Source: Anaerolineae bacterium (GTDB taxonomy: Bacteria > Chloroflexota > Anaerolineae > Anaerolineales > Villigracilaceae). Taken from it: 17,002 nucleotides of DNA. The position numbers and the translations under genes were made by a program. The stretch covers positions 1 through 17,002 of the forward strand of contig JAFLCF010000094.1 of NCBI GenBank assembly GCA_017303735.1, given 5' to 3'. Below the pieces are notes generated by a model. The model saw nothing but the letters and a program-made list of their open reading frames with translations. It searched no databases and was not told where the DNA came from. Shown here piece after piece: positions 1-12,125 of this stretch (position 1 is its first letter; each line of letters starts with the position of its first letter).

Positions 1-184
1 AATTAGACCATTCAGGAATCTGTATTTCTGGCGATATTTTCTCTGGAAGTAGACTCCAAAGTTGGGGATGATACCAGCACAAATCGTGACCTGTGCTATC
101 ACGGTGTTCACGGATTGCTTGTCGGAGTTTAACAACTTCTTTGATTAAATCTTCTTTAGTCATTAACTCTAGGTCAGCGTCCAT
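1..184 (-). CDS. Conserved hypothetical protein, cassette gene, 3' part cut by window edge
   Basis: The ATG is at 182-184 on the minus strand with a GGAG Shine-Dalgarno 7-8 nt upstream, and 61 codons are readable before the left edge. The N-terminus reads MDADLELMTKEDLIKEVVKL, an acidic helix-rich start, followed by RQAIREHRDSTGHDLCWYHP and a segment with LWSLLPEK and a PEWS motif. I recognise this from memory as the start of a short uncharacterised family often met as a cassette or genomic-island ORF, with the H-D-L-C-W-x-H-P and LLPEK motifs conserved. No function is known to me. There is no signal peptide or membrane segment in the visible part. It is the ninth and last cassette of the array within the window. 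Confidence 0.75.
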   Translation of the reverse strand, partial: MDADLELMTKEDLIKEVVKLRQAIREHRDSTGHDLCWYHPQLWSLLPEKISPEIQIPEWSN

Positions 185-212
185 TTTTTTCTCCAAACAT
201 TATGGTGTGTGT

Positions 213-248
213 GATTAGTGCAACTACGGTTTGCAAGACCCGTTAATC
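213..248 (-). repeat. Possible degenerate short attC site
   Basis: A 36-bp imperfect palindrome lies between the stop codon at 266 and the next cassette gene. Its ends GATTA/TAATC pair, and inner segments AAC-GGGT and ACCGTAGTT pair with bulges. It occupies the expected attC position but lacks the conserved core seen in the other sites and is shorter than a usual attC, so this is a positional call. Confidence 0.35.
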
Positions 249-265
249 TATCTTCAAAAACATCA

Positions 266-1567
266 CTATTGGTACCAGAAAAGTATTGGCAAAGAGATTG
301 AAATAAGAATAGCCCAAATCGCATAATAGGGCAAGTAAACTGCAATCCAATTTTCCAATTTTACAAATGGCTCACCTTTCCAAACAAAACGAACATAATT
401 AACGAGAATCCCCAATAGATGAAAAAACACAAGTAAATTTATTCCGAGAATGGCGATTCTGTTTGGTGTTAATCCATATGCATCGCTTACTGTTCTAAAG
501 ACCGATGCGGACAGGGCGATAAAGTCAAGGATGATTGTTGTTAAGGCAAGTCCGATATTGAGATAATCATTTGTGCTTGGTGCCGAGCTCGTATTTCGTT
601 CAGCGATAGTGAAGATCAATAACCCCAGCACAACGATTAGCAAGATGTTCAACGCAACCAGATATTCGCGATCTCCAAATGGATTCTTTTGATAAATGAC
701 CATGATTATTAGGTAGGCGATTGTAGTTATCAAAAATAATGGAGTAAAAATCCTGGCAATTGTTGGGGCTATGTTTAGACGTTTGTCAATTACTTTGTCT
801 AGTAGAAAGGTTGCGATTATAGGTGTGGATACAAGCCCATACATTATTGCATAATCTTCATACCATCCTGATAGTTCATAACCTTTTTCAATAAAACTAA
901 ATAATGCCAAGGTAATGCCAGATAATATTGCTCCACCAATTATTAGGATTGTGGTGTAGATGATGATTTCGCCGTTATACCTAAGGAAGCCCATCCTAGA
1001 AGATATGTTTTTCCATTCTTTTCCAGCAAAAGCAACACCTGTTACTAACCAAAGGAACAATGGAATATGTAGTTCTGCATTTTTTAGTGCGTCGTCAAAA
1101 GCGCCATACTTTTCTGAAAATTCATACCAATATTCGCCGCGACTGGGTAGTAAATTCAGGTAAATTAGCCCCGCTGCTGAAATGAGGAAAACTAATAATA
1201 TAAATTTAGGAGATTTTGTGCGCTGAACAAAATAAGCGATGAGAGGAGCGATAAATACCAACCCCCAGTTTCGAGTGTAAAACCATTGGTCATCTATTGA
1301 AGTGAAATAGTCAGGTAATTTATAAATAGTTCCCGCAATTGCAATTAATAAAAGAAGAATGAGAATATTTTTGGATGACCAAGCAGAAGCACCATGCTTT
1401 TTTTCTGCTTCAAAACTTAATCGTTCTTGCCATACTTGCAAGATAGTTGATTCGGGGTGGTTTGCCATGACAGATGGAAATGCTTTTGAGAATTCATCGG
1501 GATTTTCTCGATAAAGAATTTCCAATTCTTTTGGAGATTCCATTGCTTCAATAATTTTTATTTCCAT
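266..1567 (-). CDS. Multi-pass membrane protein, DUF4153-like
   Basis: This 433-residue protein has a soluble N-terminal stretch of about 65 residues followed by about ten hydrophobic helices, beginning near residue 68 (ILILLLLIAIAG). Near residues 365-372 the motif YGLTPNRI precedes a hydrophobic helix. This resembles the YGLTxNR signature I associate with DUF4153-type integral membrane proteins, whose role is unknown. The start is supported by AGGG about 10 nt upstream of the ATG. It is the largest cassette gene here and is intact. A full-length 10-helix protein is unusual cargo because most cassette ORFs are short. The site at 1600-1684, upstream of its start, belongs to the preceding cassette. 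Function cannot be assigned beyond an integral membrane protein. Confidence 0.8.
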   Translation of the reverse strand: MEIKIIEAMESPKELEILYRENPDEFSKAFPSVMANHPESTILQVWQERLSFEAEKKHGASAWSSKNILILLLLIAIAGTIYKLPDYFTSIDDQWFYTRNWGLVFIAPLIAYFVQRTKSPKFILLVFLISAAGLIYLNLLPSRGEYWYEFSEKYGAFDDALKNAELHIPLFLWLVTGVAFAGKEWKNISSRMGFLRYNGEIIIYTTILIIGGAILSGITLALFSFIEKGYELSGWYEDYAIMYGLVSTPIIATFLLDKVIDKRLNIAPTIARIFTPLFLITTIAYLIIMVIYQKNPFGDREYLVALNILLIVVLGLLIFTIAERNTSSAPSTNDYLNIGLALTTIILDFIALSASVFRTVSDAYGLTPNRIAILGINLLVFFHLLGILVNYVRFVWKGEPFVKLENWIAVYLPYYAIWAILISISLPILFWYQ

Positions 1568-1599
1568 AATATTTTTTCCCTATAATTGATTTTCAAATT

Positions 1600-1684
1600 G
1601 TCCAACGGTTTACATTCCCCGCCCTCTCTCGTGGACCGGGCGAATCTGTCTAACCAGGTAATCTTGCTGTCCGCTTTGCTAGCT
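1600..1684 (-). repeat. attC site A (after the 165-residue gene)
   Basis: The left end carries GTTGGAC on the minus strand, matching GTTRRRY, and the right end carries a degenerate core near GCTAGC. The conserved core lies at 1618-1658, with CGCCC pairing with GGGCG. The right half (CTTGCTGTCCGCTTTGCTAG) closely matches sites D, E and F. Between this site and the stop codon at 1757 lies a further short palindrome, TTGCTAAGCAAGG, that the other sites lack. Confidence 0.72.
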
Positions 1685-1756
1685 TGCTTTTTACTTTGCT
1701 AAGCAAGGTTGCTTAAAATTATTTCACATAATTTTGCCTTTCGCAATACTCAAAAA

Positions 1757-2254
1757 TTAATAAGTCAAATACATGTAATATGCGGTTTTATTTGGAGGGT
1801 AATAACAAAGCGTGATAAGAAGACCGCCATACAGCCCTTCTTCGTAAACATATCTTTCAATGTTTTCTAGTTTTTCTACATCCCACCATTCTGGCGGATA
1901 GGATGACCCAGAGCAAGCACCTTCATCAAGAGATAATTTTCTGCTGGAGACAATCTTTTCCAAATCATTTCTATCTACATAAAAACGAAAGTAATATGTT
2001 ACATCGGGATGAATAATAATGTCATCGAACTCTACATTTAGAATTTCAACACTTTGAGGGATTGGACTTATGATGTGTGCACGGAAGTGATCTTCGTTGG
2101 TTCCGAAAACTTGTGGAGGAAATTTAGCAGTATTCCAACATACCATTGCTATCCACAATGGAAAAGTACATATCCCGACAGTAATTAAAGCACTAAATAA
2201 AAAATCTTTTCTGCTCAGAGTGTATTTGTCTAAATCTTGTTTTTGTGATGACAT
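1757..2254 (-). CDS. Hypothetical membrane-anchored protein, cassette gene
   Basis: The product has 165 residues: a short charged N-terminus, one membrane segment at about residues 18-40 (FLFSALITVGICTFPLWIAM) and then a soluble domain of about 120 residues. The soluble part contains a stretch with HPDVTYYFRFYVDRNDLEKI, a PPEWWDVEK segment and a tyrosine-rich C-terminus (CYYPPNKTAYYMY). That pattern recalls small single-pass proteins of unknown function with a beta-rich extracytoplasmic domain, but I cannot name a family with confidence. Only a weak ribosome site (GGCGGAC) precedes the ATG. The gene begins 10 nt inside the edge of attC site B, as expected for a cassette. Confidence 0.78.
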   Translation of the reverse strand: MSSQKQDLDKYTLSRKDFLFSALITVGICTFPLWIAMVCWNTAKFPPQVFGTNEDHFRAHIISPIPQSVEILNVEFDDIIIHPDVTYYFRFYVDRNDLEKIVSSRKLSLDEGACSGSSYPPEWWDVEKLENIERYVYEEGLYGGLLITLCYYPPNKTAYYMYLTY

Positions 2255-2263
2255 TCGATGTCC

Positions 2264-2405
2264 GCCTTATTAATGACTTGCTTTGTTCTTACCCGCCCTG
2301 TCTCGTGGACCGGGCGAAGCCGTCCAGCCAGAAAAATGACAAGGCGTAGAAAACTGCTTGGGATGTGCGCAGAATCCCCAGCGTCAGGTACACGCGGTGT
2401 TAGGC
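2264..2405 (-). repeat. attC site B (after the HExxH gene), hybrid type
   Basis: The site runs from GCCTAAC (2399-2405, a full RYYYAAC match) to a degenerate ATAAGGC at the other end. The left part (2291-2331) carries the conserved core with CGCCC/GGGCG and TGGAC/GTCCA pairs. The right part (about 2335-2405) is a different sequence, longer and unlike the right halves of sites A, D, E and F. At 142 bp it is the longest site here. A 97-codon ORF that runs across it is a translation of the repeat and is not called. Confidence 0.72.
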
Positions 2406-2410
2406 GGCGT

Positions 2411-3319
2411 TTAGTGTTGTTGAAAATCTGAATAATCAACATTGCAAACAAGCCCATTTGACGAATCACTAAACGCAACTCCAAAGTTTTGCATAAATTC
2501 TTTGATAAATGGAATGCCTTCAATCAACTGATAATTGTTATCTAAATAATTTTGACGAACATAGTCAATCAGTGCGATTGTTCTTTCATTGACAAAATCA
2601 CATTTAGATAGCTCTGACAATGGAAGGTGATTTGGATAACAATCTGAAAGAGAAAAGGAATGGGCTAACACTACAAGGATTTCATCGAACAATGCGCCCA
2701 CTTTAGGCAAGAAAATTGTAATGTCTTGATGTTCTTGTAATTGTTGTATCGATTTTTTAATTTCTTGCATATGATTTGAATCTGTCAGTGCAATAATAAA
2801 GGAAGACGCTTGGCGAATTAATGCTGCTTGCCAAAGTTCACTCTTTACCAGAAACAGCTTGTCGATGACTGAATACGCCTTTCTGTCGGCAATATATTCA
2901 TCGACAAATCTTTCAAGGTTTTTGACATAAATTCTGTCTGATTGAGAATGAATTTCTTCAACCAAAAATTTTGAACTGTTGACTAAATGTATAAGTTCGT
3001 GAATATAAACAAAAGCTCTGGTTTGTATATCTTCGTGTTCGCTATAAAAAAGACGGAATGATAGTACTATACAAAAGCCAGCGGGAGAGTTGATGATTTT
3101 GGCTTGTGCCCTAACTTGGTGTTCGCCAAGATTTCGCACTGATTGATAATTTGGTTTTTCAAGCAACCCATTTACGGCAATATCGAAATCGGCAGGCACA
3201 ATAATTCTATCAATTGTTAGAGTAGGAAAAATTTCAGGGGTTGCACCAAAAAACGACTGCAACTCGGAATTAATCAAATCTCTTTCCTCAGATGTGCCAA
3301 CTTCAACAATGATTTTCAT
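2411..3319 (-). CDS. HExxH zinc-metallopeptidase-like protein, cassette gene
   Basis: This soluble protein of 302 residues contains HELIH at residues 107-111. A DEYIADRKA segment follows, with Glu141 thirty residues after the second His. That arrangement (two His plus a downstream Glu/Asp) fits a gluzincin-type zinc site such as those of ImmA/IrrE-like or other minimal metallopeptidases. The flanking helix RAFVYIHELIHLVNSS is typical of an active-site helix. No signal peptide or membrane segment is seen, so it should act in the cytoplasm. The C-terminal half (about 160-302) is helical and unrecognised, and no helix-turn-helix is visible. The stop codon abuts the GCCTAAC core of attC site B. 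Peptidase activity is an inference from the motif; the substrate is unknown. Confidence 0.75.
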   Translation of the reverse strand: MKIIVEVGTSEERDLINSELQSFFGATPEIFPTLTIDRIIVPADFDIAVNGLLEKPNYQSVRNLGEHQVRAQAKIINSPAGFCIVLSFRLFYSEHEDIQTRAFVYIHELIHLVNSSKFLVEEIHSQSDRIYVKNLERFVDEYIADRKAYSVIDKLFLVKSELWQAALIRQASSFIIALTDSNHMQEIKKSIQQLQEHQDITIFLPKVGALFDEILVVLAHSFSLSDCYPNHLPLSELSKCDFVNERTIALIDYVRQNYLDNNYQLIEGIPFIKEFMQNFGVAFSDSSNGLVCNVDYSDFQQH

Positions 3320-3355
3320 ATCGTCTCACTTCACGAATGTCCTAGCAATTGAGCC

Positions 3356-3430
3356 GCCTTACGGTATGCGTTACCCGCCCTCTCTCGTGGACCGGGCGAA
3401 TCCGTCCAAACAGTAATGTACACGTTGGGT
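3356..3430 (-). repeat. attC site C (after the DUF4870-like gene), hybrid type
   Basis: The right end is ACCCAAC on the minus strand (3424-3430), a full RYYYAAC match placed one base from the stop codon of the upstream gene. The left end is GTAAGGC, one base off GTTRRRY. The conserved core spans 3373-3412. The right half lacks the CTTGCTG...CGCTTTGTTAG block of sites A, D, E and F, making this the shortest core-bearing site (75 bp). Confidence 0.75.
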
Positions 3431-3431
3431 C

Positions 3432-3950
3432 TTAATCACTGGCTATGGCAGCTATTGCGAGGAAGGAACCTACAGCAAAAGCTAAAAAATTTATTAAGAC
3501 GAATACTATCAAAGGGATATATATTATTGACGGTTTCAAACTTACCGTTGGCATAAAGCGTTCAACTTGCTTCCCGATTATCCAATAACGAAAGGACTTA
3601 CCTTGAAAAGTTAGAATAGCACCAATAATTCCGTAAGTAATTAAGATGAAATTTACAATCAAACCGATAGTCACTATTCGATCAATATAGGCAACGAATA
3701 CGGTGGTGGGGATAAAGAAAATACTCCAGTAATCAATAAACCCAATTAGCATAATAAGCATTTGATATATTAAGGCTTGAAGAGATTGAAATGTTAGAAA
3801 ATGCGACTTACTCTTTTGTTTTGCCTGTATTATCCAAATGATGAGTGGCACAAGAAGTCCAATGCGAGGTATCAGAATTGACACATGAGAGAAGGCAGAC
3901 AACAGGCGCTCGCTTTGACTTAGTTGTGATGTGTCAGTGTTGTTAATCAT
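3432..3950 (-). CDS. DUF4870/Tic20-like membrane protein, cassette gene
   Basis: The product has 172 residues with about four hydrophobic helices. The N-terminal third carries a pattern I recognise from DUF4870 proteins: SERLLSAFSHVSILIP, then LLVPLIIWIIQ, a KSHFLTFQSLQAL loop and a second helix. The family is structurally related to Tic20-like four-helix membrane proteins and has no settled function. An AAAGGAT ribosome site lies about 8 nt before the ATG. It is a single-gene cassette flanked by attC sites C and D. DUF4870-type genes are usually chromosomal genes of small size, so capture as a cassette is plausible. Confidence 0.8.
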   Translation of the reverse strand: MINNTDTSQLSQSERLLSAFSHVSILIPRIGLLVPLIIWIIQAKQKSKSHFLTFQSLQALIYQMLIMLIGFIDYWSIFFIPTTVFVAYIDRIVTIGLIVNFILITYGIIGAILTFQGKSFRYWIIGKQVERFMPTVSLKPSIIYIPLIVFVLINFLAFAVGSFLAIAAIASD

Positions 3951-3960
3951 TGATATAAAT

Positions 3961-4049
3961 CCTTTTTACTATTTGGGATACCCGCCCTCTCTCGTGGACC
4001 GGGCGAATCTGTCCAATCAGGTAGTATCTTGCTGTCCGCTTTGTTAGCG
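3961..4049 (-). repeat. attC site D (after the 203-residue gene)
   Basis: Its right end carries GCTAAC (4043-4048) followed on the minus strand by AAAGCGGACAGCAAG, the same half found in site A. The conserved core is at 3979-4021 with intact CGCCC/GGGCG and TGGAC/GTCCA pairs. The left boundary is degenerate and approximate, as no good GTTRRRY is seen there. Confidence 0.68.
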
Positions 4050-4066
4050 TGGTGCTTTGTTCCCAC

Positions 4067-4678
4067 TTAGCCTGCATTTTTTGCAATTGAATCCACTAAT
4101 TCTAACAGGGACTTTGTGCGCCATGGATTCCAAAACATCCCTTTCACATTCAATGTGACAGTACCTGTGCGAGAAATGATCAGGCTTGATTGATACTCAG
4201 GTATGAAACCATCACCACGAAGTGCGTTATAAAGTCTTTCTCTCAATTCTTCAACCATAAGAAGATTGCGTCCAAAATCTCGGGGAGTGCTCTGAACAAT
4301 CAAATTACTATCCCAAGAGTCTCCAAAATAAGTCTTTTGTTTCCTGAACCAAGATGTATTTGGTGTAACTTTGAGCCTTGAACCTGGTTTCGCTCGAGAT
4401 TTAACGCTAATTGCGAGACGGTGCTCCATTGACATTCGATACCCAAGTGTCACATAGCTCTTTACGGATTGAACTCGATCATCTACAACAAGTGCAACCC
4501 CAATGCTGGGAAAGCTATGCGTAAAGCATTTAATGAAGAATTTTTTCACATCAAATTCTAGATTGGCTAGACGTGCAAAAATAACCATGTGCAGAGTTGC
4601 TGATAGACAGATAACAACTCGCCAGAGAGGTACCAATAAGATAACACCAATTATTAGAATCCAATTTTGATTTGACAT
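4067..4678 (-). CDS. Hypothetical protein with N-terminal membrane segment, cassette gene
   Basis: The product has 203 residues. One or two hydrophobic helices lie at the N-terminus (about residues 6-35, WILIIGVILLVPLWRVVICL), and the rest is soluble, basic and probably mixed alpha/beta. I do not recognise a family. The soluble part includes a GVALVVDDRVQSVKSYVTLG strand-like segment and ends in SLLELVDSIAKNAG. No catalytic motif stands out. No convincing Shine-Dalgarno precedes the ATG at 4676-4678; an upstream in-frame alternative is not obvious. The stop codon lies 18 nt from the core site of attC D, consistent with a cassette gene. Confidence 0.72.
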   Translation of the reverse strand: MSNQNWILIIGVILLVPLWRVVICLSATLHMVIFARLANLEFDVKKFFIKCFTHSFPSIGVALVVDDRVQSVKSYVTLGYRMSMEHRLAISVKSRAKPGSRLKVTPNTSWFRKQKTYFGDSWDSNLIVQSTPRDFGRNLLMVEELRERLYNALRGDGFIPEYQSSLIISRTGTVTLNVKGMFWNPWRTKSLLELVDSIAKNAG

Positions 4679-4709
4679 GACATATGAGTTTGATAATTAT
4701 TGCGAAGCC

Positions 4710-4814
4710 GCCCAACAGTTTGCGGCTTGTCCCCGATTGGGGATACCCGCCTTCTCTCGTGGACCAGGCGAATCTGTCCAACCAGATAGTATCTTGCTTC
4801 ACGCTTTGCTAGTT
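4710..4814 (-). repeat. attC site E (after the 221-residue gene), with covarying stem
   Basis: Ends are GTTGGGC on the minus strand at 4710-4716 (full GTTRRRY) and AACTAGC at 4808-4814. In the core, CGCCT (4748-4752) pairs with AGGCG (4766-4770), while sites A-D have CGCCC/GGGCG: both members changed and pairing is kept. TGGAC (4760-4764) pairs with GTCCA (4776-4780). An extra hairpin, CCCC-GATT-GGGG at 4731-4742, and flanking AAGCCG/CGGCTT are unique to this copy. Confidence 0.78.
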
Positions 4815-4834
4815 GGCGTTTTTTTAACAAGCAA

Positions 4835-5500
4835 TTATTGGCAAGGATACCATGTCTTGTCTGTGGATTGGTAACACCATTCATAAGGTTTTTCTGAAGG
4901 CAAGTTTATGCCATAAGTGGTAGTAGGAACAGAGAAATATTGAGATGGTCGAATGGGAGTATTACTATTTATTAGATAGTTACAAGAACTTCCTGTTGAG
5001 CCTTCAAATGACATAGATTTGTTTTGATAATGTGGGTCGTTGGTATCTGAAATAACAAATGCATTGTAAGATTGTCCATCAATGAAAATTTGTATGCTTT
5101 GTATGCATTCACCTGTTGATAAAATATTCAACATTAATGTTTCTGTACCAAATTCATTTCGCCATCCCCAATACGGTCCTGTTTGAAAAATTTGAGCAGG
5201 AACGCTGCTTGCTGATGTTTGAACACCTGGATTAGTTGTTAGCGGATCCAAAATAACCGTTGTTGGCTGGTCATTAAAATTCCTTAATAGCGATGTAGCA
5301 AATATAGCGCTTAGGATAAAACCGATAACTGCCATAACAGATGCTACTAGCCCAATCCACCCACACGAAACACCAGATGACTGGGAGTTTGATGATTTCT
5401 CCTTTATCTTTGCTGCTTCAATAGTGCCAAATGCGCCAATTAATGCTGCAAGAACTGCACCAATTAAACCTATTAGAGCTACAACAATACTATCAGACAT
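4835..5500 (-). CDS. Hypothetical membrane-anchored extracytoplasmic protein, cassette gene
   Basis: The product has 221 residues. A first glycine/alanine-rich hydrophobic helix spans about residues 4-26 (SIVVALIGLIGAVLAALIGA), a charged loop with KIKEK follows, and a second helix lies at about 47-70. A soluble domain of about 145 residues then ends at WCYQSTDKTWYPCQ. The soluble part has several cysteines (near 130, 170 and the C-terminus) that could form disulfides outside the membrane, and is rich in Ser, Thr, Asn and Tyr. I do not recognise the family. A GGGAG ribosome site lies about 8 nt before the ATG, which supports the start. It sits between attC sites E and F as a single-gene cassette. 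Confidence 0.77.
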   Translation of the reverse strand: MSDSIVVALIGLIGAVLAALIGAFGTIEAAKIKEKSSNSQSSGVSCGWIGLVASVMAVIGFILSAIFATSLLRNFNDQPTTVILDPLTTNPGVQTSASSVPAQIFQTGPYWGWRNEFGTETLMLNILSTGECIQSIQIFIDGQSYNAFVISDTNDPHYQNKSMSFEGSTGSSCNYLINSNTPIRPSQYFSVPTTTYGINLPSEKPYEWCYQSTDKTWYPCQ

Positions 5501-5536
5501 AATCTAATCTCCCTTTTTTGTTGATAAGGATTAGCT

Positions 5537-5623
5537 AGCTAACAGTATGCGTTACCCGCCTGGTCTCGTAGATCGGGCGAATCCGTCCAACCAGATAATA
5601 TCTTGCTGCGCGCTTTGTTAGCT
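5537..5623 (-). repeat. attC site F (after the PD-(D/E)XK-like gene)
   Basis: The ends AGCTAAC (5537-5543) and GTTAGCT (5617-5623) are perfect complements, the cleanest terminal pairing in the array. The core at 5553-5594 diverges more than in the other copies: stem one is CGCCT/GGGCG (one wobble pair), and stem two is TAGAT/GTCCA with one mismatch. The right half matches sites A, D and E. Length is 87 bp. Confidence 0.78.
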
Positions 5624-5643
5624 GGCGTTATTATAAAACGTAT

Positions 5644-6216
5644 TTATCCTGAGGAATTACCTACGTTTTCTTTGAAAATATTGTATTTCGTTCTTGTGTA
5701 TTCATCACCAACACGACGAAAATAAGATGATGAAGAAAAACTTATATCCCAACCGCCAAGTAGATTACTTTTGGTAGGTTTGATTTTACGAAAAGTACCT
5801 ACATGGGCTAAACCAGCAAGGCGTAACATACCGATTAGCTGATGCATGTATGTGTTGTCTCTAGTTAATTTACTGTCATTCACTTCAAATACATCTGAAT
5901 ATCCAAGCACAAAAGCGGGATTTGCAATTTTTCCATCAACTTGAAATTTTGATTGAACATAAGAAATGCTTTGCCAAATAAAGCGTGACATCTTTCCTGT
6001 TTCACCTGCAACGCCAAAATGTTTAACTTCAATACCAAACCAAACAGGGTCAAAGCCTGCTTTTATCAAGTGTGGCATGGGGTAAAGCATAAAGTCAATC
6101 ACAACTTTTTTATGATGAAGCAATTCTTCCCCTCTAACGTCTGGATGAATCATAAAATCATCTTTTGCAAGACTGTGAAACTTTATTTTTAAGGCTCTTT
6201 CACCTTCGTCACTCAT
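5644..6216 (-). CDS. Putative PD-(D/E)XK-fold protein, cassette gene
   Basis: This soluble protein of 190 residues has a spacing that fits a PD-(D/E)XK nuclease-like core. A strand with VVIDFML places Asp41, a second strand WFGIEVKHF places Glu63-Val-Lys65, and the following helix carries Gln82 and Tyr86 (WQSISYVQS). An acidic pair, Glu30-Glu31, precedes Asp41. The family resemblance is to small phage or mobile-element proteins with an xDxxx...xExK core followed by a Q...Y helix. I cannot place it in a named family, and nuclease activity is an inference. GAGG lies about 8 nt before the ATG. The start lies 11 nt from the short palindrome 6227-6260. No membrane segment is present. Confidence 0.7.
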   Translation of the reverse strand: MSDEGERALKIKFHSLAKDDFMIHPDVRGEELLHHKKVVIDFMLYPMPHLIKAGFDPVWFGIEVKHFGVAGETGKMSRFIWQSISYVQSKFQVDGKIANPAFVLGYSDVFEVNDSKLTRDNTYMHQLIGMLRLAGLAHVGTFRKIKPTKSNLLGGWDISFSSSSYFRRVGDEYTRTKYNIFKENVGNSSG

Positions 6217-6226
6217 ATTTCCCTCA

Positions 6227-6260
6227 AATTAACACGCGTCGGGTGCACGCTTTGTTAGGT
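6227..6260 (-). repeat. Short attC-like site G (after the Abi_C-like gene)
   Basis: On the minus strand it begins ACCTAAC (6254-6260, full RYYYAAC), continues AAAGCGTGCACCCGACGCG and ends GTGTTAATT. AACA..GCGT pairs with ACGCGTGTT. The first half (TAACAAAGCG) is the same type as sites D and F, but the conserved core is missing, leaving only about 34 bp. It may be a deleted or truncated attC. Confidence 0.6.
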
Positions 6261-6265
6261 GCGGT

Positions 6266-7105
6266 TTACTGACCACTCTTGAGGGCAGCTAACATATATT
6301 CTGCAATTATGCCCATTTGTTGCACTGCCAACTTAGCTTGGACAATGGTAACACTTGGTATCCAAGGTCGTCCATGCCCAGTTCCTTCTTTATTACGAAG
6401 ACCATTCACCGCACAACCAGATTCGTAAAGTGCTCTTTCGACTTTTTTGATAGTAGGTTCCCCAGATTGCGGAGTATTTTGGGGAGTAGCGAAACCGAGT
6501 GCCACAAAAGCTTGACCAAGCAAACCCGGAAAATTCGCTGAAGATGGATAACTTCCCCACTTTTCTACGAGGATATGTGCGGCTGTTGCTTCTAATAAGT
6601 CTTTACCTGTACCAGTGACAAGCGCTGCATCTTCAGCACCACGTTTGGCACGACGCACATATCCCTCTAAAGCGGCTGTGAGTTCAGCACCTTCAAGGTT
6701 ATCAAGTAAAAGTGGAAAAATATCTCCGTCAAAGGTGAGTTCAAAGCCTACAGTCTTAAATGCTGAAATTGCATTTTGAATTGCTTCTTTACCAACAAAA
6801 TTAGAAGAACCATCACGAAACCCGCCACATGCCTTGACGTGTGAGATTAGATTAACTACGAATCTAGCTCCATTATCTGGGGCGTTTTCTAAAGCCCAAC
6901 TTAGTGTAGAGCGAACTCGTTTTGCTTTTCCTACTAACTGTCCCTGAGCTTTCGGATCACCATTTTGTAAATTTGTTCTCTTAATTTCAAATTCAATATC
7001 AGAATGACTTGGCTCACGAGTCTCAACTTGAGCATCATCAACTAGCCGCGAAATGGCAACTATGATTGTATCGGTTAGAGGGGGAGTTGAATTCTTTGTT
7101 GACAT
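6266..7105 (-). CDS. Abi_C (abortive-infection C-terminal, HEPN-like) domain protein, cassette gene
   Basis: The product has 279 residues. The C-terminal half fits the Abi_C pattern from memory: LEGYVRRAKRG at 146-156, a GTGKDLLEATAAHIL helix at 165-179, an NFPGLLGQAFVALG helix at 191-204, and then GLRNKEGTGHGR at 235-246 followed by a long hydrophobic helix. Arg237 and His244 give an R-x6-H arrangement like the RNase motif of HEPN domains. The N-terminal half (about 1-140) is charged, then helical, and unrecognised. Abi_C domains occur in phage-exclusion and other defence proteins; an RNase role for this one is inferred. It is the first cassette from the right end. GATAAT lies 4 nt before the ATG, and no good Shine-Dalgarno is seen. 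Confidence 0.82.
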   Translation of the reverse strand: MSTKNSTPPLTDTIIVAISRLVDDAQVETREPSHSDIEFEIKRTNLQNGDPKAQGQLVGKAKRVRSTLSWALENAPDNGARFVVNLISHVKACGGFRDGSSNFVGKEAIQNAISAFKTVGFELTFDGDIFPLLLDNLEGAELTAALEGYVRRAKRGAEDAALVTGTGKDLLEATAAHILVEKWGSYPSSANFPGLLGQAFVALGFATPQNTPQSGEPTIKKVERALYESGCAVNGLRNKEGTGHGRPWIPSVTIVQAKLAVQQMGIIAEYMLAALKSGQ

Positions 7106-7135
7106 ATTAATTATCCCAATTGTTTATGAAAAGCC

Positions 7136-7207
7136 AGCCAACTACGTTTTAACGGAACCATTCGGCTTTTTGTCCCCCTGCGGGGTGATATGCCGAATAG
7201 TTCGGCT
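7136..7207. other. Palindromic element at the right border of the cassette array
   Basis: AGCCAAC (7136-7142) and GTTCGGCT (7200-7207) pair at the ends with one bulge. Inside are TTCGGC (7161-7166), GCCGAA (7192-7197) and TTCGGC (7201-7206), which allow two alternative stems, and a small CCCC-TGC-GGGG hairpin at 7175-7185. It does not share the conserved attC core. It could be a divergent attC, a remnant of the attI/array boundary, or a terminator for the helicase gene that ends at 7337. Confidence 0.45.
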
Positions 7208-7283
7208 TAACATCCTTTGTATGGATGAGCAAATTATACGCCACTCCCAACCAAAGCGGAATAAAACCACCCCACACGCACCC

Positions 7284-7332
7284 ATTCCCCATTCCCCATT
7301 CCCCATTCCCCATTCCCTATTCCCTATCCCCC
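7284..7332. repeat. Heptanucleotide tandem repeat, ATTCCCC, seven units
   Basis: Four exact ATTCCCC units (from 7284, 7291, 7298 and 7305) are followed by two ATTCCCT units (7312, 7319) and a degenerate ATCCCCC (7326). The run ends 4 bp before the helicase stop codon, between that gene and the array border. It resembles heptanucleotide tandem repeats known between genes in cyanobacteria. No coding role is apparent. Confidence 0.9.
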
Positions 7333-7336
7333 TTCA

Positions 7337-9274
7337 CTACTCCTCCCACACCGAATGATACGCCCCAATGCTTTCAAAATACTTCACCATCTTCTCGTAA
7401 AACGGATGCGCCGTGATGGTGGCGCTATCGCCGATGACGATCAATTTTCTTCGGGCACGAGTCAACGCCACGTTCATGCGCCGCGTATCGGCGAGAAAGC
7501 CCACATCGCCATCACGATTGGAGCGCACAAGACTTACGATGACGACTTCCTTCTCGCGTCCTTGAAAACCGTCCACGCTGTCAATTTCAATACCGCTCAA
7601 GCCGCCGTCTCCGGCGGCAATTTTGTTGAGTTTTTGCCTTAACAACTTCACCTGCGCCGAATACGGCGAGATGATCGAAATGTCTTTTGAGAGAACGCCA
7701 TGCTCCATTAACTCGTTCACTTTTTTAACCACCAACTCCGCCTCAAGCGGGTTAAGTCGGCTTTCCCCATCGGGCTCCGGCTCTTCGTCGTAGCTGGCGC
7801 CTGCCGTGTCAATGAAGTGAATGGCTTGATCTGTCAGCGGAGATGAAGTGACATGGGGCAGGTCAGCTAACAACGCGGTGCGAACCGCATCGTACGCTTG
7901 TAAATGCCCTTCGTAAAAAACATCCGAAGAAAAATTCATAATGTCCTGATGCATGCGATATTGCACATCCAACATTTTGCGCGGAGCATTGTCGTTGAGC
8001 AGGCGCTCCATCAAGCTGATGTTGAAGCCGCCGCGCATGGCTTCGGGCGAAAGCACAGTCGGCGGAAGCTGACAAGGATCGCCTGCCAGCACCAGGCGCT
8101 GTGCATATTGAATCGGGATCCACGCGGCAGGCTCGGTGCTCTGACCCGCTTCATCCATAATGCACCAATCGAAATGCTTGCCTTCCAGCCGGTCACGGTC
8201 TAACCCGGTGGCAGTGGCACAAAGAATGCGCGCATTGATCAAAATGCTCGAGGTGATCTGATCTTCGATCTGCCTTGCTTCACGCAGCATCTCTTTGGCT
8301 TCATCGCGCATGGCTTGCTTCTCGCCACGCTCGGGTTTGGCGCGTGTATATTTAAAAGATTGATCGCACAAGGCATACGCATCGCGCATCAGTTTGTTTG
8401 CGATCTTGATATCAGGATGATGCTCAACCATCAGGTCGAGCGTGTGCTCACGTAGTTCGGGCGTCACGCGTGCCGGGTGCCCAAGCCGAATGGCATGCGC
8501 GCCTGCGTTTATCAATTTCTCAAGCAGGTTATCCACTGCCATATTGCTGGGGGCAACCGCCAGCACACTTTGTCCATTGCGAACGATCTGCAAGATCAAC
8601 TCCACCAACGTCGTCGTCTTGCCTGTGCCCGGCGGACCATGAATAATGGCAACATCTTCAGCACTCAACGTGAATTGCACCGCCTCGATCTGCGATGGGT
8701 TTAGATGTTTATTCAAAGGTTCGAACGCTTCTGGTTTTTCAAAAAGCGCACCTGCATTTCCGATCAACACATCTCGTAACACTTCAAGGCGCGAATTGCC
8801 GCCCGCCGTCCGCGCCGCCTCCATGGCTTGGCGCTGACGAAAGCGCGCGATCTCATCCGATGCGCGGTCGATGCGAAACGTGGGCTTCTCTGCTTCCGTT
8901 TCAATAAACTGCTGAACCGCCACCTGAATGGCATCTCTGCGAATCGCACTGACGATACCACGCCAGCCATTCTCTTCATTATTAGATGAAGTGCCACGCC
9001 TCTCTTCTGTGACGATGACCGGGCTGCCCACTCCTAGCCTTGTCCACGGCAGCGGCAGAGTCTCATTACGCTTGCCAAACCCCAGCAGAAAACGCCCGCC
9101 CAAGCCATATCCCTCTTCGCGAATCACAAGATTGACAAGGCTATTGCCCGTCGCTTCGGCTTCGGCTGGCGAAAGTTTACTGCGCTCGCGCACAGCCTCC
9201 TTCTTTTCAGCCTCAGCTTCCAGCTCTAACAGCAACGCAAGATTCCCAAAATACTCAGTCGGCGAAATTTTCAT
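7337..9274 (-). CDS. UPF1/IGHMBP2-like superfamily 1 DNA/RNA helicase
   Basis: With the start chosen here the protein has 645 residues. The Walker A motif GPPGTGKT is at residues 213-220, with a Q-motif-like NPSQIEAV just before it. DEAGQ (motif II) is at about 374-378, GDPCQLPP (motif III) at about 398-405, QYRMH (motif IV region) at about 438-442, and the C-terminal region carries GFQGREKE and MNVALTRARRKL (motifs V and VI). The N-terminal ~200 residues probably hold an OB/stalk-like part, as in IGHMBP2-type helicases. An upstream start giving 73 more residues would run through the divergent promoter region and overlap the gene at 9393, so ATG 9272-9274 (MKISPTEYF) is preferred. A TAAAAT box lies exactly 8 nt before it, with no Shine-Dalgarno close by. 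Confidence 0.93.
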   Translation of the reverse strand: MKISPTEYFGNLALLLELEAEAEKKEAVRERSKLSPAEAEATGNSLVNLVIREEGYGLGGRFLLGFGKRNETLPLPWTRLGVGSPVIVTEERRGTSSNNEENGWRGIVSAIRRDAIQVAVQQFIETEAEKPTFRIDRASDEIARFRQRQAMEAARTAGGNSRLEVLRDVLIGNAGALFEKPEAFEPLNKHLNPSQIEAVQFTLSAEDVAIIHGPPGTGKTTTLVELILQIVRNGQSVLAVAPSNMAVDNLLEKLINAGAHAIRLGHPARVTPELREHTLDLMVEHHPDIKIANKLMRDAYALCDQSFKYTRAKPERGEKQAMRDEAKEMLREARQIEDQITSSILINARILCATATGLDRDRLEGKHFDWCIMDEAGQSTEPAAWIPIQYAQRLVLAGDPCQLPPTVLSPEAMRGGFNISLMERLLNDNAPRKMLDVQYRMHQDIMNFSSDVFYEGHLQAYDAVRTALLADLPHVTSSPLTDQAIHFIDTAGASYDEEPEPDGESRLNPLEAELVVKKVNELMEHGVLSKDISIISPYSAQVKLLRQKLNKIAAGDGGLSGIEIDSVDGFQGREKEVVIVSLVRSNRDGDVGFLADTRRMNVALTRARRKLIVIGDSATITAHPFYEKMVKYFESIGAYHSVWEE

Positions 9275-9282
9275 GGCGAGGT

Positions 9283-9288
9283 ATTTTA
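9283..9288 (-). promoter_or_regulatory. Candidate -10 box for leaderless helicase transcript
   Basis: TAAAAT on the minus strand is separated from the helicase ATG by 8 nt (ACCTCGCC), so transcription would start at or next to the start codon. No Shine-Dalgarno sits at normal spacing, and no clear -35 hexamer is seen. Confidence 0.5.
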
Positions 9289-9294
9289 TCGTAT

Positions 9295-9337
9295 CCTCCC
9301 CCAAATCCGACAGCACTATCGTCGTATTTGGGGGAGG
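9295..9337. repeat. 12-bp perfect inverted repeat between divergent genes
   Basis: CCTCCCCCAAAT (9295-9306) and ATTTGGGGGAGG (9326-9337) are perfect inverted copies around a 19-nt centre. A second hairpin follows directly: GCCCCGCC-GAA-GGC-A-GGGGC at 9339-9358. The repeat could be an operator for the divergent pair or part of a dispersed genomic repeat; the sequence alone does not decide. Confidence 0.85.
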
Positions 9338-9378
9338 TGCCCCGCCGAAGGCAGGGGCGGAGGGGGCAGGGGGCACAT

Positions 9379-9384
9379 TATAAT
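9379..9384 (+). promoter_or_regulatory. Consensus -10 box for leaderless DUF4258 operon transcript
   Basis: A perfect TATAAT is followed after 8 nt by the ATG at 9393-9395, matching the spacing on the opposite side. The expected -35 region holds a G-rich tract (GGGG at 9354-9357, GGGGG at 9362-9366 and 9369-9373) instead of a TTGACA-like box. No Shine-Dalgarno lies before the start. Confidence 0.6.
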
Positions 9385-9392
9385 CACCGCCT

Positions 9393-9662
9393 ATGAATTC
9401 CCTCCTATTTCGCGCCCATGCGGTGCAACGAATGTTCGAACGCGGCATCTCCATTGGCAAAGTCCGCGCCGCGTTGAAAGCCGAAGACGTCATCGAAGAT
9501 TACACCTCCGAAATGCCCGAGCCCAGCCGCTTACTCTTCGGTCTGCAAGGCAATCGTCCCTTTCACGTGGTTACATCTGAAAATGAAAAACAGACAACGG
9601 TCATAACCGTCTATCATCCCACTCCCGATAAATGGAAAAAAGACTCACGGAGCCGTCGATGA
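9393..9662 (+). CDS. DUF4258 domain protein (RelE-like toxin candidate)
   Basis: The product has 89 residues. The pattern fits DUF4258: an N-terminal RAHAVQRMFERGIS helix (residues 7-20), a VRAALKAEDVIEDY segment, a central LLFGLQGNRPFHVV strand pair and a C-terminal TTVITVYHPTPDKW strand. DUF4258 proteins share a small fold with RelE-like ribonuclease toxins and are often paired with a YgiT-type zinc-finger gene, as here. Toxin activity of this copy is an inference. Its stop codon overlaps the preferred start of the next gene (ATGA at 9659-9662), so the two are translationally coupled. The start is set by the TATAAT 8 nt upstream. Confidence 0.85.
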   Translation: MNSLLFRAHAVQRMFERGISIGKVRAALKAEDVIEDYTSEMPEPSRLLFGLQGNRPFHVVTSENEKQTTVITVYHPTPDKWKKDSRSRR

Positions 9663-9880
9663 TCTGTGTCGTTTGCAGAGAAGCGCACACTCTTGGCGGC
9701 TTTTCCTCCATCCGTTTTGAACGCGACGAATTTCAGGCAGTCGTTCATAAAGTCCCTGCCCAAGTTTGCCCAGCCTGCGGCGAATCCTTTTTAGATGAAG
9801 AAACCACCATTTCCCTCCTAAAACGGGTGGAACAAATCCTGGAAGAAGGCGTACTAGACGTCGTTCACGATTACGCATGA
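9659..9880 (+). CDS. YgiT/MqsA-type zinc-finger protein (antitoxin-like)
   Basis: This 73-residue protein carries two CxxC pairs, CVVC at residues 3-6 and CPACGE at 37-42 (Cys37 and Cys40), forming the zinc-binding N-terminal domain of YgiT/MqsA antitoxins. A DETTISLLKRVEQIL-like helix follows. The DNA-binding helix-turn-helix of full MqsA is absent, as in many DUF4258 partners. ATG 9659 is preferred to an in-frame ATG at 9632, because it gives the ATGA overlap with the gene before and starts right at the first CxxC. Its own stop overlaps the next start (ATGA at 9877-9880). Antitoxin role is inferred from pairing. Confidence 0.82.
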   Translation: MICVVCREAHTLGGFSSIRFERDEFQAVVHKVPAQVCPACGESFLDEETTISLLKRVEQILEEGVLDVVHDYA

Positions 9881-10974
9881 AAAAACATCTACTCACTTTA
9901 TCGGTGCTTCTTGCTGCCTGTTCAACGGTCCCTGCTTCGCCAACTGCCACCCTCCCTCCGCCCATCGTCACGGTAATTCATCCCACAGAAACAGTTGCGC
10001 CAACAGCCACTCCGCAAGTGACGCCCACCGCCACAGCCTTGCCGCATCTCATGTATCCGTACACCATTGCGGGTTTGCGCGAACGTCAATTCGAAGGCGG
10101 AGTCATCGAAGTCGGCGCACGCATTGCCTTCAACGACCAATTCAGTAGCTACCTCATCGCTTATCCATCCGATGGCTTACGCATCACAGGCGTAGTTAAC
10201 ATCCCAGCAGGGGAGGGGACATTCCCCGTCATCGTCATGAACCACGGCTTTTATCCACGAAGTGAATACACCTCGGGTGACGGCTCACAACGTGCTGCTG
10301 AATATCTCGCACAGCGCGGCTACATCACCATCTCTTCCGATTATCGCACCTGGGGCACCTCCGACTTTGGCGTTTCTTTCTTCCACACCGGCTTGGTCAC
10401 CGATGTGATGAACCTGCTCGCCTCCCTTGACTCCATTCCCCAGGCAGATGTCTCTCGCATCGGCATGTGGGGACATAGCATGGGCGGCGGCATCACGACC
10501 AAAATCCTTACGCTCGATTCCCCCGTGAGAGCGGCGGTCTTATACGCACCCAACTCCGCTGACGATGCCGACCTGATTGCGCGCTGGGGCTATGGCTGCA
10601 TCGGCGATATTGCCGCCGGGGAGCTGCTCGAAACCTGTAACTCAGCAGATGTGATTCCTGAGTCACTTCCAGCCGAGATCATAGCCGCGTATAAAGAATC
10701 AGCTCAAAGCGCAGATAGGATGCGCGAGGTCGCTCCGTTCTATCATTTAGATTCGGTCACCGTGCCAGTGCAGATCCACATCGGTTCTGCCGACGGCGAT
10801 TACATCGGCTCGACTCCGCCAGAGTGGTCGTATAAATTGAATCAAGGTCTGCTCGACGCTGGCAAAGATGTTGAAATGTTCGTCTACCAAAACCAACGCC
10901 ACTCTTTTACCGGCGAAGCCTGGACCCTGTTCATGGATCGCGCCGTTGCTTTTTTCGATGAGAATTTAAAATAA
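9877..10974 (+). CDS. Secreted lipoprotein alpha/beta hydrolase, copy 1
   Basis: The product has 365 residues. A signal peptide ends in a lipobox (LAAC, Cys15), followed by a Pro/Thr-rich linker to about residue 55, so the protein should be anchored on the outside of the membrane. The hydrolase core starts near 60: VIVMNHGF (oxyanion region, 118-125), GMWGHSMGGG with nucleophile Ser201, a likely acid Asp306 (GSADGD) and His342 (QRHSF). The fold matches dienelactone hydrolase/prolyl-oligopeptidase-like esterases; the substrate is unknown. Cys241 and Cys254 are conserved in the neighbouring copy and may form a disulfide. The start overlaps the stop of the zinc-finger gene by ATGA, placing a secreted enzyme in one operon with a TA-like pair. 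Confidence 0.88.
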   Translation: MKKHLLTLSVLLAACSTVPASPTATLPPPIVTVIHPTETVAPTATPQVTPTATALPHLMYPYTIAGLRERQFEGGVIEVGARIAFNDQFSSYLIAYPSDGLRITGVVNIPAGEGTFPVIVMNHGFYPRSEYTSGDGSQRAAEYLAQRGYITISSDYRTWGTSDFGVSFFHTGLVTDVMNLLASLDSIPQADVSRIGMWGHSMGGGITTKILTLDSPVRAAVLYAPNSADDADLIARWGYGCIGDIAAGELLETCNSADVIPESLPAEIIAAYKESAQSADRMREVAPFYHLDSVTVPVQIHIGSADGDYIGSTPPEWSYKLNQGLLDAGKDVEMFVYQNQRHSFTGEAWTLFMDRAVAFFDENLK

Positions 10975-10991
10975 TCGCTTGGTATTTGTAG

Positions 10992-11010
10992 GGCGGGTTG
11001 TCAACCCGCC
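10992..11010. repeat. Short perfect hairpin between the two hydrolase genes
   Basis: GGCGGGTT and AACCCGCC form a stem of 8 bp with a 3-nt loop (up to 9 bp if the loop closes). No T-run follows, so it is not a standard intrinsic terminator. It may weaken read-through or be one copy of a dispersed small palindrome. Confidence 0.7.
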
Positions 11011-11033
11011 TTGCATCAAATTCATGGTGAAAT

Positions 11034-12125
11034 ATGAAAAAGCTTAACTTTATCTTTATTGCATTGTTTCTATCTGCTTGTAGCACTTCATCTGCAAGCC
11101 CAACCCCAGCACAACTGGTCGTTACCATCGTCCCGTCAACCTCTACACCAACGGAAACGCCCCAACCAACTGCAACCCTCACCACCGAGCAGGCAATACA
11201 GCCCTACACCATCGCTGGCTTGCGAGAGCGTGAATATGAAAGCGGCGTCATCACACGCGGCGAACCGGTCTTTGAAACAGAATACTTCACTCGTTACCTC
11301 ATCTCATACCCAAGTGACGGACTCACCATCACCGGCGTCTTGCAAATTCCAAAAGTAGGCGAAGCACCTTATCCGGTCATCGTCATGAATCATGGATTCT
11401 TTTCACGCTACATTTACAACTCCGGCGATGGCACCGACCGTGCTGCTGAGTTTCTTAATCGTCGCGGCTATCTCACCGTATCATCTGACTATCGCAGTTG
11501 GGGTGATTCGGATACGGGCGAAAGCTTGTTTTATTCCGGGCAGGTCATCGATGTGATCCATCTGATGAATGCACTTCCATCCATCCCAGAAGCCGACACA
11601 GATCGTATCGGCATGTGGGGGCATAGCATGGGCGGCGGTATCACGGCAAAAGTGCTCACCATTGTTGGCGCGCGTGTCAAAGCCGCAGTGTTATATTCAT
11701 CCGTCAGCGCCGACTTCGCAGATGTCATCGGTCGTTGGGGTCCCGGCTGTATTGGGGATGTCTACGAAGGCGAGGCGACATTTGGCTGCAATTCATCGGA
11801 TATCCTCCCACTCGATTTGCCAGCAGATTTAACCGCCTCCTACTTCGACGCGACAACGGATCCGGTTATGCTGGAAGCGGTCTCTCCGCTCTATCATTTC
11901 GACCTAGTCTCAGCACCTGTTCAAGTCGTCTACGGCACTGAAGATGGCAAAACCTCTGCAGGCACGCCGCCGGAGTGGTCGCAGAAACTATATTCGGCTT
12001 TTGTTGATGCCGGGGTGAGTGCAGAAATATTCGGCTATCAAGGCGAAGAACATTCTTTCATCGGAGACCCATGGTTCGTATTCATGGGCAAAACTCAATT
12101 GTTCTTTGATAAACATGTGAAGTAA
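11034..12125 (+). CDS. Secreted lipoprotein alpha/beta hydrolase, copy 2
   Basis: The product has 363 residues and is a clear paralogue of the preceding gene. The order is the same: lipobox LSAC with Cys16, Pro/Thr-rich linker to about residue 52, QPYTIAGLRERE start of the core, VIVMNHGF, GMWGHSMGGGIT with Ser198, Asp304 (GTEDGK), His340 (GEEHSF) and the conserved cysteines 239 and 252. Both copies keep the full Ser-Asp-His triad, so both are probably active; linker and lid regions have diverged most. GGTGA lies about 5 nt before the ATG. A 59-nt gap with a small hairpin separates it from copy 1. It most likely arose by tandem duplication, and the substrate remains unknown. Confidence 0.88.
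   Translation: MKKLNFIFIALFLSACSTSSASPTPAQLVVTIVPSTSTPTETPQPTATLTTEQAIQPYTIAGLREREYESGVITRGEPVFETEYFTRYLISYPSDGLTITGVLQIPKVGEAPYPVIVMNHGFFSRYIYNSGDGTDRAAEFLNRRGYLTVSSDYRSWGDSDTGESLFYSGQVIDVIHLMNALPSIPEADTDRIGMWGHSMGGGITAKVLTIVGARVKAAVLYSSVSADFADVIGRWGPGCIGDVYEGEATFGCNSSDILPLDLPADLTASYFDATTDPVMLEAVSPLYHFDLVSAPVQVVYGTEDGKTSAGTPPEWSQKLYSAFVDAGVSAEIFGYQGEEHSFIGDPWFVFMGKTQLFFDKHVK

Follow-up and report, generated by a model that had tools for sequence, protein, structure and literature searches.

The window analysed here, the whole stretch of 17,002 nt from an Anaerolineae bacterium and probably a contig in full, since the longest contig on record for its proteins has the same length, holds at its left end (positions 1–7105) nine open reading frames, all on the minus strand, the leftmost of them interrupted by the end of the window. 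The same-strand units mostly consist of one ORF each, and the GC content of the region is 0.389, as against 0.506 in the flank. A first-pass annotation took the region for an integron-type cassette array, nine units each followed by an attC-like palindrome, with no visible integrase. The question that the locus raises is whether this is an integron, what is left of one, or a cluster of genes of another kind. I consider it, with a probability of about 80%, to be a decaying cluster of integron cassettes lacking an integrase (CALIN), lying in the chromosome of a member of the Anaerolineales (Chloroflexota).

CALINs are defined by two or more attC sites with no integrase nearby and have been proposed to be degraded integrons (PMC9024848). 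They have also been proposed to arise through insertion at off-target positions, through loss of the integrase or through rearrangement (PMC8618304). Chloroflexota has already been named among integron-bearing phyla (PMC8618304, PMC9668308), and so the phylum itself is not new for integrons; the element is of an ordinary kind, in a host that has been studied less. The phylum is what those integrons and the window array have in common, and in the available portions of the two papers they are known by phylum name only. The window thus offers a partly decayed array in a phylum where, in those portions, integrons are named and not described. No description of the array itself was found in the open-licence literature searched. 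Its features are listed in Table 1.

Table 1. Features of the cassette array and of the gene flanking it, in window coordinates (CM, covariance model).
Feature	Coordinates	Strand	Remarks
ORF 9	2..190	−	Small protein; incomplete at window end
Weak right-arm remnant of attC	221..244	−	−1.5 bits, not significant; spacer 191–265
ORF 8	266..1567	−	433 aa, hydrophobic, no assigned family
Degenerate attC-like site	1600..1684	−	Hairpin 1618–1644; right arm 1600–1623, 21.2 bits; left arm poor; CM E = 1
ORF 7	1757..2254	−	165 aa, uncharacterised
attC-like site	2264..2405	−	Left arm 2383–2405 near-perfect, 33.5 bits; hairpin 2292–2318; right arm degraded
ORF 6	2411..3319	−	302 aa, uncharacterised; HELIH (HExxH) motif, by eye
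Degenerate attC-like site	3356..3430	−	Right arm 3356–3379, 27.8 bits; hairpin 3374–3400; left arm shortened
ORF 5	3432..3950	−	172 aa, DUF4870
Degenerate attC-like site	3963..4049	−	Left arm 0.5 bits; hairpin 3981–4007; right arm −4.2 bits
ORF 4	4067..4678	−	203 aa, uncharacterised
Degenerate attC-like site	4710..4814	−	Hairpin 4746–4772; CM 9.6 bits, E 0.42
ORF 3	4835..5500	−	221 aa, uncharacterised
Best attC site	5537..5623	−	End boxes AGCTAAC/GTTAGCT complementary; right arm 20.1, left arm 8.0 bits
ORF 2	5644..6216	−	190 aa, candidate PD-(D/E)XK nuclease
Truncated attC	6227..6260	−	Left arm 6238–6260 near-perfect, 37.6 of 39.6 bits; centre and right arm absent
ORF 1	6266..7105	−	279 aa, Abi_C abortive-infection C-terminal domain
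IGHMBP2-type helicase	7337..9493	−	Flanking chromosomal gene, on the side where an integrase is expected

The cargo of the array is mostly uncharacterised, with two defence-like members, the Abi_C protein and the possible nuclease. The latter assignment is putative and draws on three residues (D41, E63 and K65) that are invariant across an alignment of 18 sequences. The HELIH motif of ORF 6 suggests a metalloprotease-like protein, and the structure predicted for its 302-aa product without an alignment (pLDDT 32.8) has no usable fold. Family searches with the 433-aa protein of ORF 8 gave nothing above the cut-off, and none of the nine cassette proteins matched PADLOC at E ≤ 0.01. CALINs of Xanthomonas, which belongs to a different phylum, are likewise groups of cassettes in the chromosome at a distance from intI, and some of their cassettes encode defence systems, including abortive infection (PMC12444791); the likeness is one of organisation and cargo. 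The reading frames of all nine are open and the genes themselves thus do not look decayed, a point against a decaying CALIN. A promoter scan was uninformative (24 found, 21.6 expected). Rfam gave no matches to the whole window at the gathering threshold and, at E ≤ 5, a single match to positions 1–7400 that was judged to be due to chance.

Six of the eight spacers between the ORFs contain a copy, with up to three mismatches, of a 27-nt hairpin motif, TTYGCCYGRTCYACGAGANNRGGCGGG, whose stem is CGCCC/GGGCG. These six, all on the minus strand, are the only copies in the window, and 200 shuffles produced none. Palindromes scattered outside the cassettes, which the first-pass annotation had named as evidence against its own reading, are not seen as far as the window reaches: the 9.9 kb beyond the array contain no copy. 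In the copy at 4746–4772 one stem pair has become T-A, a compensatory change; at the same pair the copy at 5555–5581 has a C/A mismatch, which counts against the decaying CALIN. Four spacers (1568–1756, 3951–4066, 4679–4834 and 5501–5643) are pairwise 78–92% alike over 70–89 nt. The motif also occurs in one other genome contig, L001, from a gammaproteobacterial MAG, and a search of viral contigs for it found none. Taken on its own, the hairpin looks like a REP element or a terminator, and a terminator scan of positions 1–7400 did find 11 where 5.8 were expected. That the locus is merely a gene cluster with such hairpins, unrelated to integrons, is nonetheless hardly credible: the hairpins lie in spacers that bear attC arms on the correct strand, and one spacer (2255–2410) shares 86% identity with an attC of viral contig L040 over 119 nt and diverges from it beyond. 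The left-arm matches given below, which were not selected for, already disfavour that explanation.

The model with which attC sites were sought goes back to a right-arm sequence, GGTAACGCAAACCGTT, found in two spacers of L001. A search pattern drawn from the L001 right arm and from right arms of the window led to 25 stretches of viral contigs, most with several complete sites. The training alignment consists of 57 sites of viral contigs; 31 further right-arm matches were excluded because no left arm was recognised in them. The 57 aligned sites have the anatomy of attC, with complementary end boxes (GCCTAAC/GTTAGGC), inner boxes, extra bases that remain unpaired and a variable terminal part. 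Under a consensus structure drawn by hand, 92.9% of the pair cells are formed, as against 24–37% with the partner slid, two-sided changes occur in 15 of the 21 pairs, and four of five covariation measures exceed all 500 shuffles; the fifth, which considers further pair types, does not (38 vs. 37.3). The covariance model built on this alignment, R1, gives rough E-values. Left-arm scores of training sites fall as low as −4.8, probably owing to a few sites with an extra base in the arm, and these sites were retained. Since the training pattern came in part from right arms of the window and L001, the window's scores for the right arm and for the full model are not independent evidence; left-arm matches, covariation and adjacency to integrases are, because they were not selected for. 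Other routes to attC sites were dropped: an ab initio finder with strict boxes had next to no hits, even in the flanks of IntI, and the pattern AAAGCGNRCAGCAAGAT yielded 38 stretches of viral contigs, of which one had AAC within the preceding five bases and did not look like attC. The pattern TTGGACRGATTCGCCYGG had no match in the viral contigs.

That the family is indeed attC is supported by its attC-like folding and by the presence of R1 sites beside proteobacterial intI genes. Of 13 proteobacterial regions flanking IntI, none of them used in training, six have R1 sites at E ≤ 0.05 and seven have no match, nor does R1 match L093, from a viral contig with an integrase. Four whole genomes, picked for earlier hits or (G001) for L001, were searched with 150 candidates scored in each, giving five matches: G137 has one at 1.0 kb from the first and one at 0.7 kb from the second of its two intI genes, G081 has one at a distance of 7 kb from intI, and the remaining two are in L001 and in G083, the latter not near the intI of that genome. 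The whole-genome search missed a site, L080, known from the search of IntI-flanking regions. The seven flanks with no hit, the one covariation measure and the partial circularity of the right-arm and model scores all weigh against the decaying-CALIN reading.

Separate matrices for the left and the right arm were run on both strands of the window and on 100 shuffles. The top three left-arm matches of the whole window (37.6, 33.5 and 8.0 bits) and the top three right-arm matches (27.8, 21.2 and 20.1 bits) all fall in spacers, on the minus strand; the maxima over the shuffles are 18.5 bits for the left arm and 15.3 for the right. One arm exceeds its shuffle maximum in five of the eight spacers, neither arm does so in three, and both do so in none, the last two counts arguing against a decaying CALIN. 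Good left arms (6238–6260, 2383–2405) and good right arms (3356–3379, 1600–1623) occupy different spacers, and the sites of L001 likewise show mixed halves. Spacers 3951–4066 and 4679–4834 have the hairpin motif, yet both their arms are at shuffle level. The only site with both arms recognisable, 5537–5623, has a weak left arm that lies within the shuffle range, its 8.0 bits falling short not only of the shuffle maximum but also of the 95% level of the shuffles, 11.6. Complementary R''/R' end boxes, characteristic of the viral-contig family, are present at that site and degraded at the remaining ones.

The attC covariance check that the first-pass annotation had proposed, run here with R1, partly bears it out: 5537–5623 (21.6 bits, E 3.7e-4) and 2264–2405 (15.8 bits, E 0.011) are found at E ≤ 0.05, and the other array sites lie above that value. 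The third, 4710–4814, has an E-value of 0.42, followed by 1600–1684 (E = 1), 3356–3430 (7.2 bits, E 1.6) and the truncated site 6227–6260 (5.3 bits, E 4.8). In all, 25 matches pass E 10, and the best outside the array scores 8.2 bits. What stands of the original description is therefore an integron-type array of nine minus-strand ORFs with related palindromic spacers that contain attC arms. Its nine attC sites do not stand: there are eight spacers, one of which (6217–6265) has a left arm only and another (191–265) at most a weak right-arm remnant, and most sites are degraded half-sites rather than working attC. The hairpin confined to spacers, the arms on the minus strand, the two R1 hits and the difference in GC content between array and flank support a CALIN. 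As in the CALINs of IntegronFinder 2.0 (PMC9024848), there are at least two attC sites, as judged by R1 with its rough E-values and not by IntegronFinder's own model, and no integrase was found nearby; the hairpins and best arm matches place attC on the gene strand, after stop codons. The array differs from those CALINs in that its sites are mostly half-sites, scored with R1 rather than IntegronFinder.

The 123 matches that R1 gives at E ≤ 0.01 in L039–L063, the 25 viral loci, include the training sites; some of them are truncated where a contig ends, and one site enters twice, once for each strand. Their scores run from 21.9 to 93.4 bits with a median of 68, whereas no window site exceeds 21.6, which supports decay. 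Of the 25 contigs, 14 match terminase (PF03237) or portal (PF04860) above the cut-off, and phages may therefore often carry cassette arrays of this attC family. Phage-borne CALINs have been described in which five of six attC sites tested recombined with attI1 (PMC9892861). The window array resembles them as a cluster of attC sites with no integrase and differs in its chromosomal context and poorly preserved sites. The state of preservation and the attC family shared with viral contigs are what make it less usual for a CALIN.

It may be asked, then, whether the cassettes arrived as one block, on a phage, a plasmid or the like bearing the R1 attC family, in a host that never had an integron. 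The spread of the family over viral contigs and its presence in the gammaproteobacterial MAG of L001, where the resident integron region (L008) has no R1 match, are in keeping with such an import, and an imported block would still be a CALIN now, so that the two explanations overlap. I regard it as unlikely, since PHROGs matched none of the nine cassette proteins at E ≤ 0.01, the four similar sites suggest a common local origin, and two of the three cassette proteins sought in viral contigs had no relative there. The third, that of ORF 9, has a relative of 62% identity over 50 aa in L064, in a stretch with no R1 match at E ≤ 0.01. The MAG contig has at L001:1290–4600 a small cassette cluster of its own, in which one attC site matches R1 and one hairpin is shared with the window. 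In L047 (3453–5089), on a contig with terminase matches, a truncated integron integrase is divergent from attC sites of the R1 family, and in G276 (L040, L065) a complete integrase match (404.7 bits) and attC sites lie towards opposite ends of the contig.

The search for an integrase in the window, with 25 IntI queries, gave no match at E ≤ 1, in agreement with the first-pass annotation. The same search matched its controls L047 and L057, and L001 weakly (best E 0.01). No complete integron, with intI adjoining the array, is found within the 17-kb window, and to the right of 7105 there is, as had been noted, a helicase gene in place of the integrase. The absence holds for the 17 kb covered, a point against the decaying CALIN and in favour of a living array, served by a functional integrase elsewhere in the genome or beyond the left end, whose divergent sites would be a lineage-specific attC type. 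The intact ORFs fit such an array, as does the similarity of the four spacers, such as is seen where a chromosomal integron has its house attC type. I find it very doubtful all the same, given that at several sites the arm of one side is unrecognisable and that the orientation predicts an integrase on the side of the helicase, where none was found.

On the preferred reading, that of a decaying CALIN, an integron integrase acting on folded single-stranded attC DNA would have inserted cassettes successively downstream of the helicase gene. Later this enzyme would have been lost, or it may have acted from elsewhere all along, and recombination or deletion between similar repeats would have cut the sites down to half-sites. 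Being half-sites, they would leave most cassettes no longer able to be shuffled and inherited like ordinary genes. The array in this partly decayed form suggests how cassette arrays fossilise. A more specific version, in which phages with one distinct attC family seeded arrays into different phyla (Anaerolineales and the gammaproteobacterium of L001), the sites then decaying by repeat recombination into chimeric half-sites, seems to me quite unlikely. That one attC family occurs in viral contigs, in a gammaproteobacterial MAG and in an Anaerolineales chromosome gives, in any case, a testable lead on cassettes crossing phyla.

The assignment of the host accords with the flanking helicase gene, which probably starts inside the ORF given here, its database counterpart being 645 aa long. 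Among 8,000 candidates scored there were 7,817 homologues. Organism names accompany 17 of the 120 homologues listed, 12 of them from Anaerolineales and five from Chloroflexota, and the best has 87% identity. By this homologue comparison of a single gene, the flanking gene is of the Anaerolineales type, and the Chloroflexota chromosome supposed at the outset is upheld. Between the helicase and the first cassette (7106–7336), folding and inspection by eye show a long imperfect hairpin (7145–7210), possibly a terminator or a remnant of attI. Short repeats of the type CCCATTCC adjoin both cassette clusters, at 7281–7332 in the window and at L001:1080–1111. On the far side of the helicase, a DUF4258 gene overlaps a gene with a weak match, below the Pfam cut-off, to the MqsA antitoxin (9393–9880), and the pair looks, from its sequence, like a toxin-antitoxin pair. 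It is followed at 9877–12125 by two tandem genes, each matching alpha/beta-hydrolase families.
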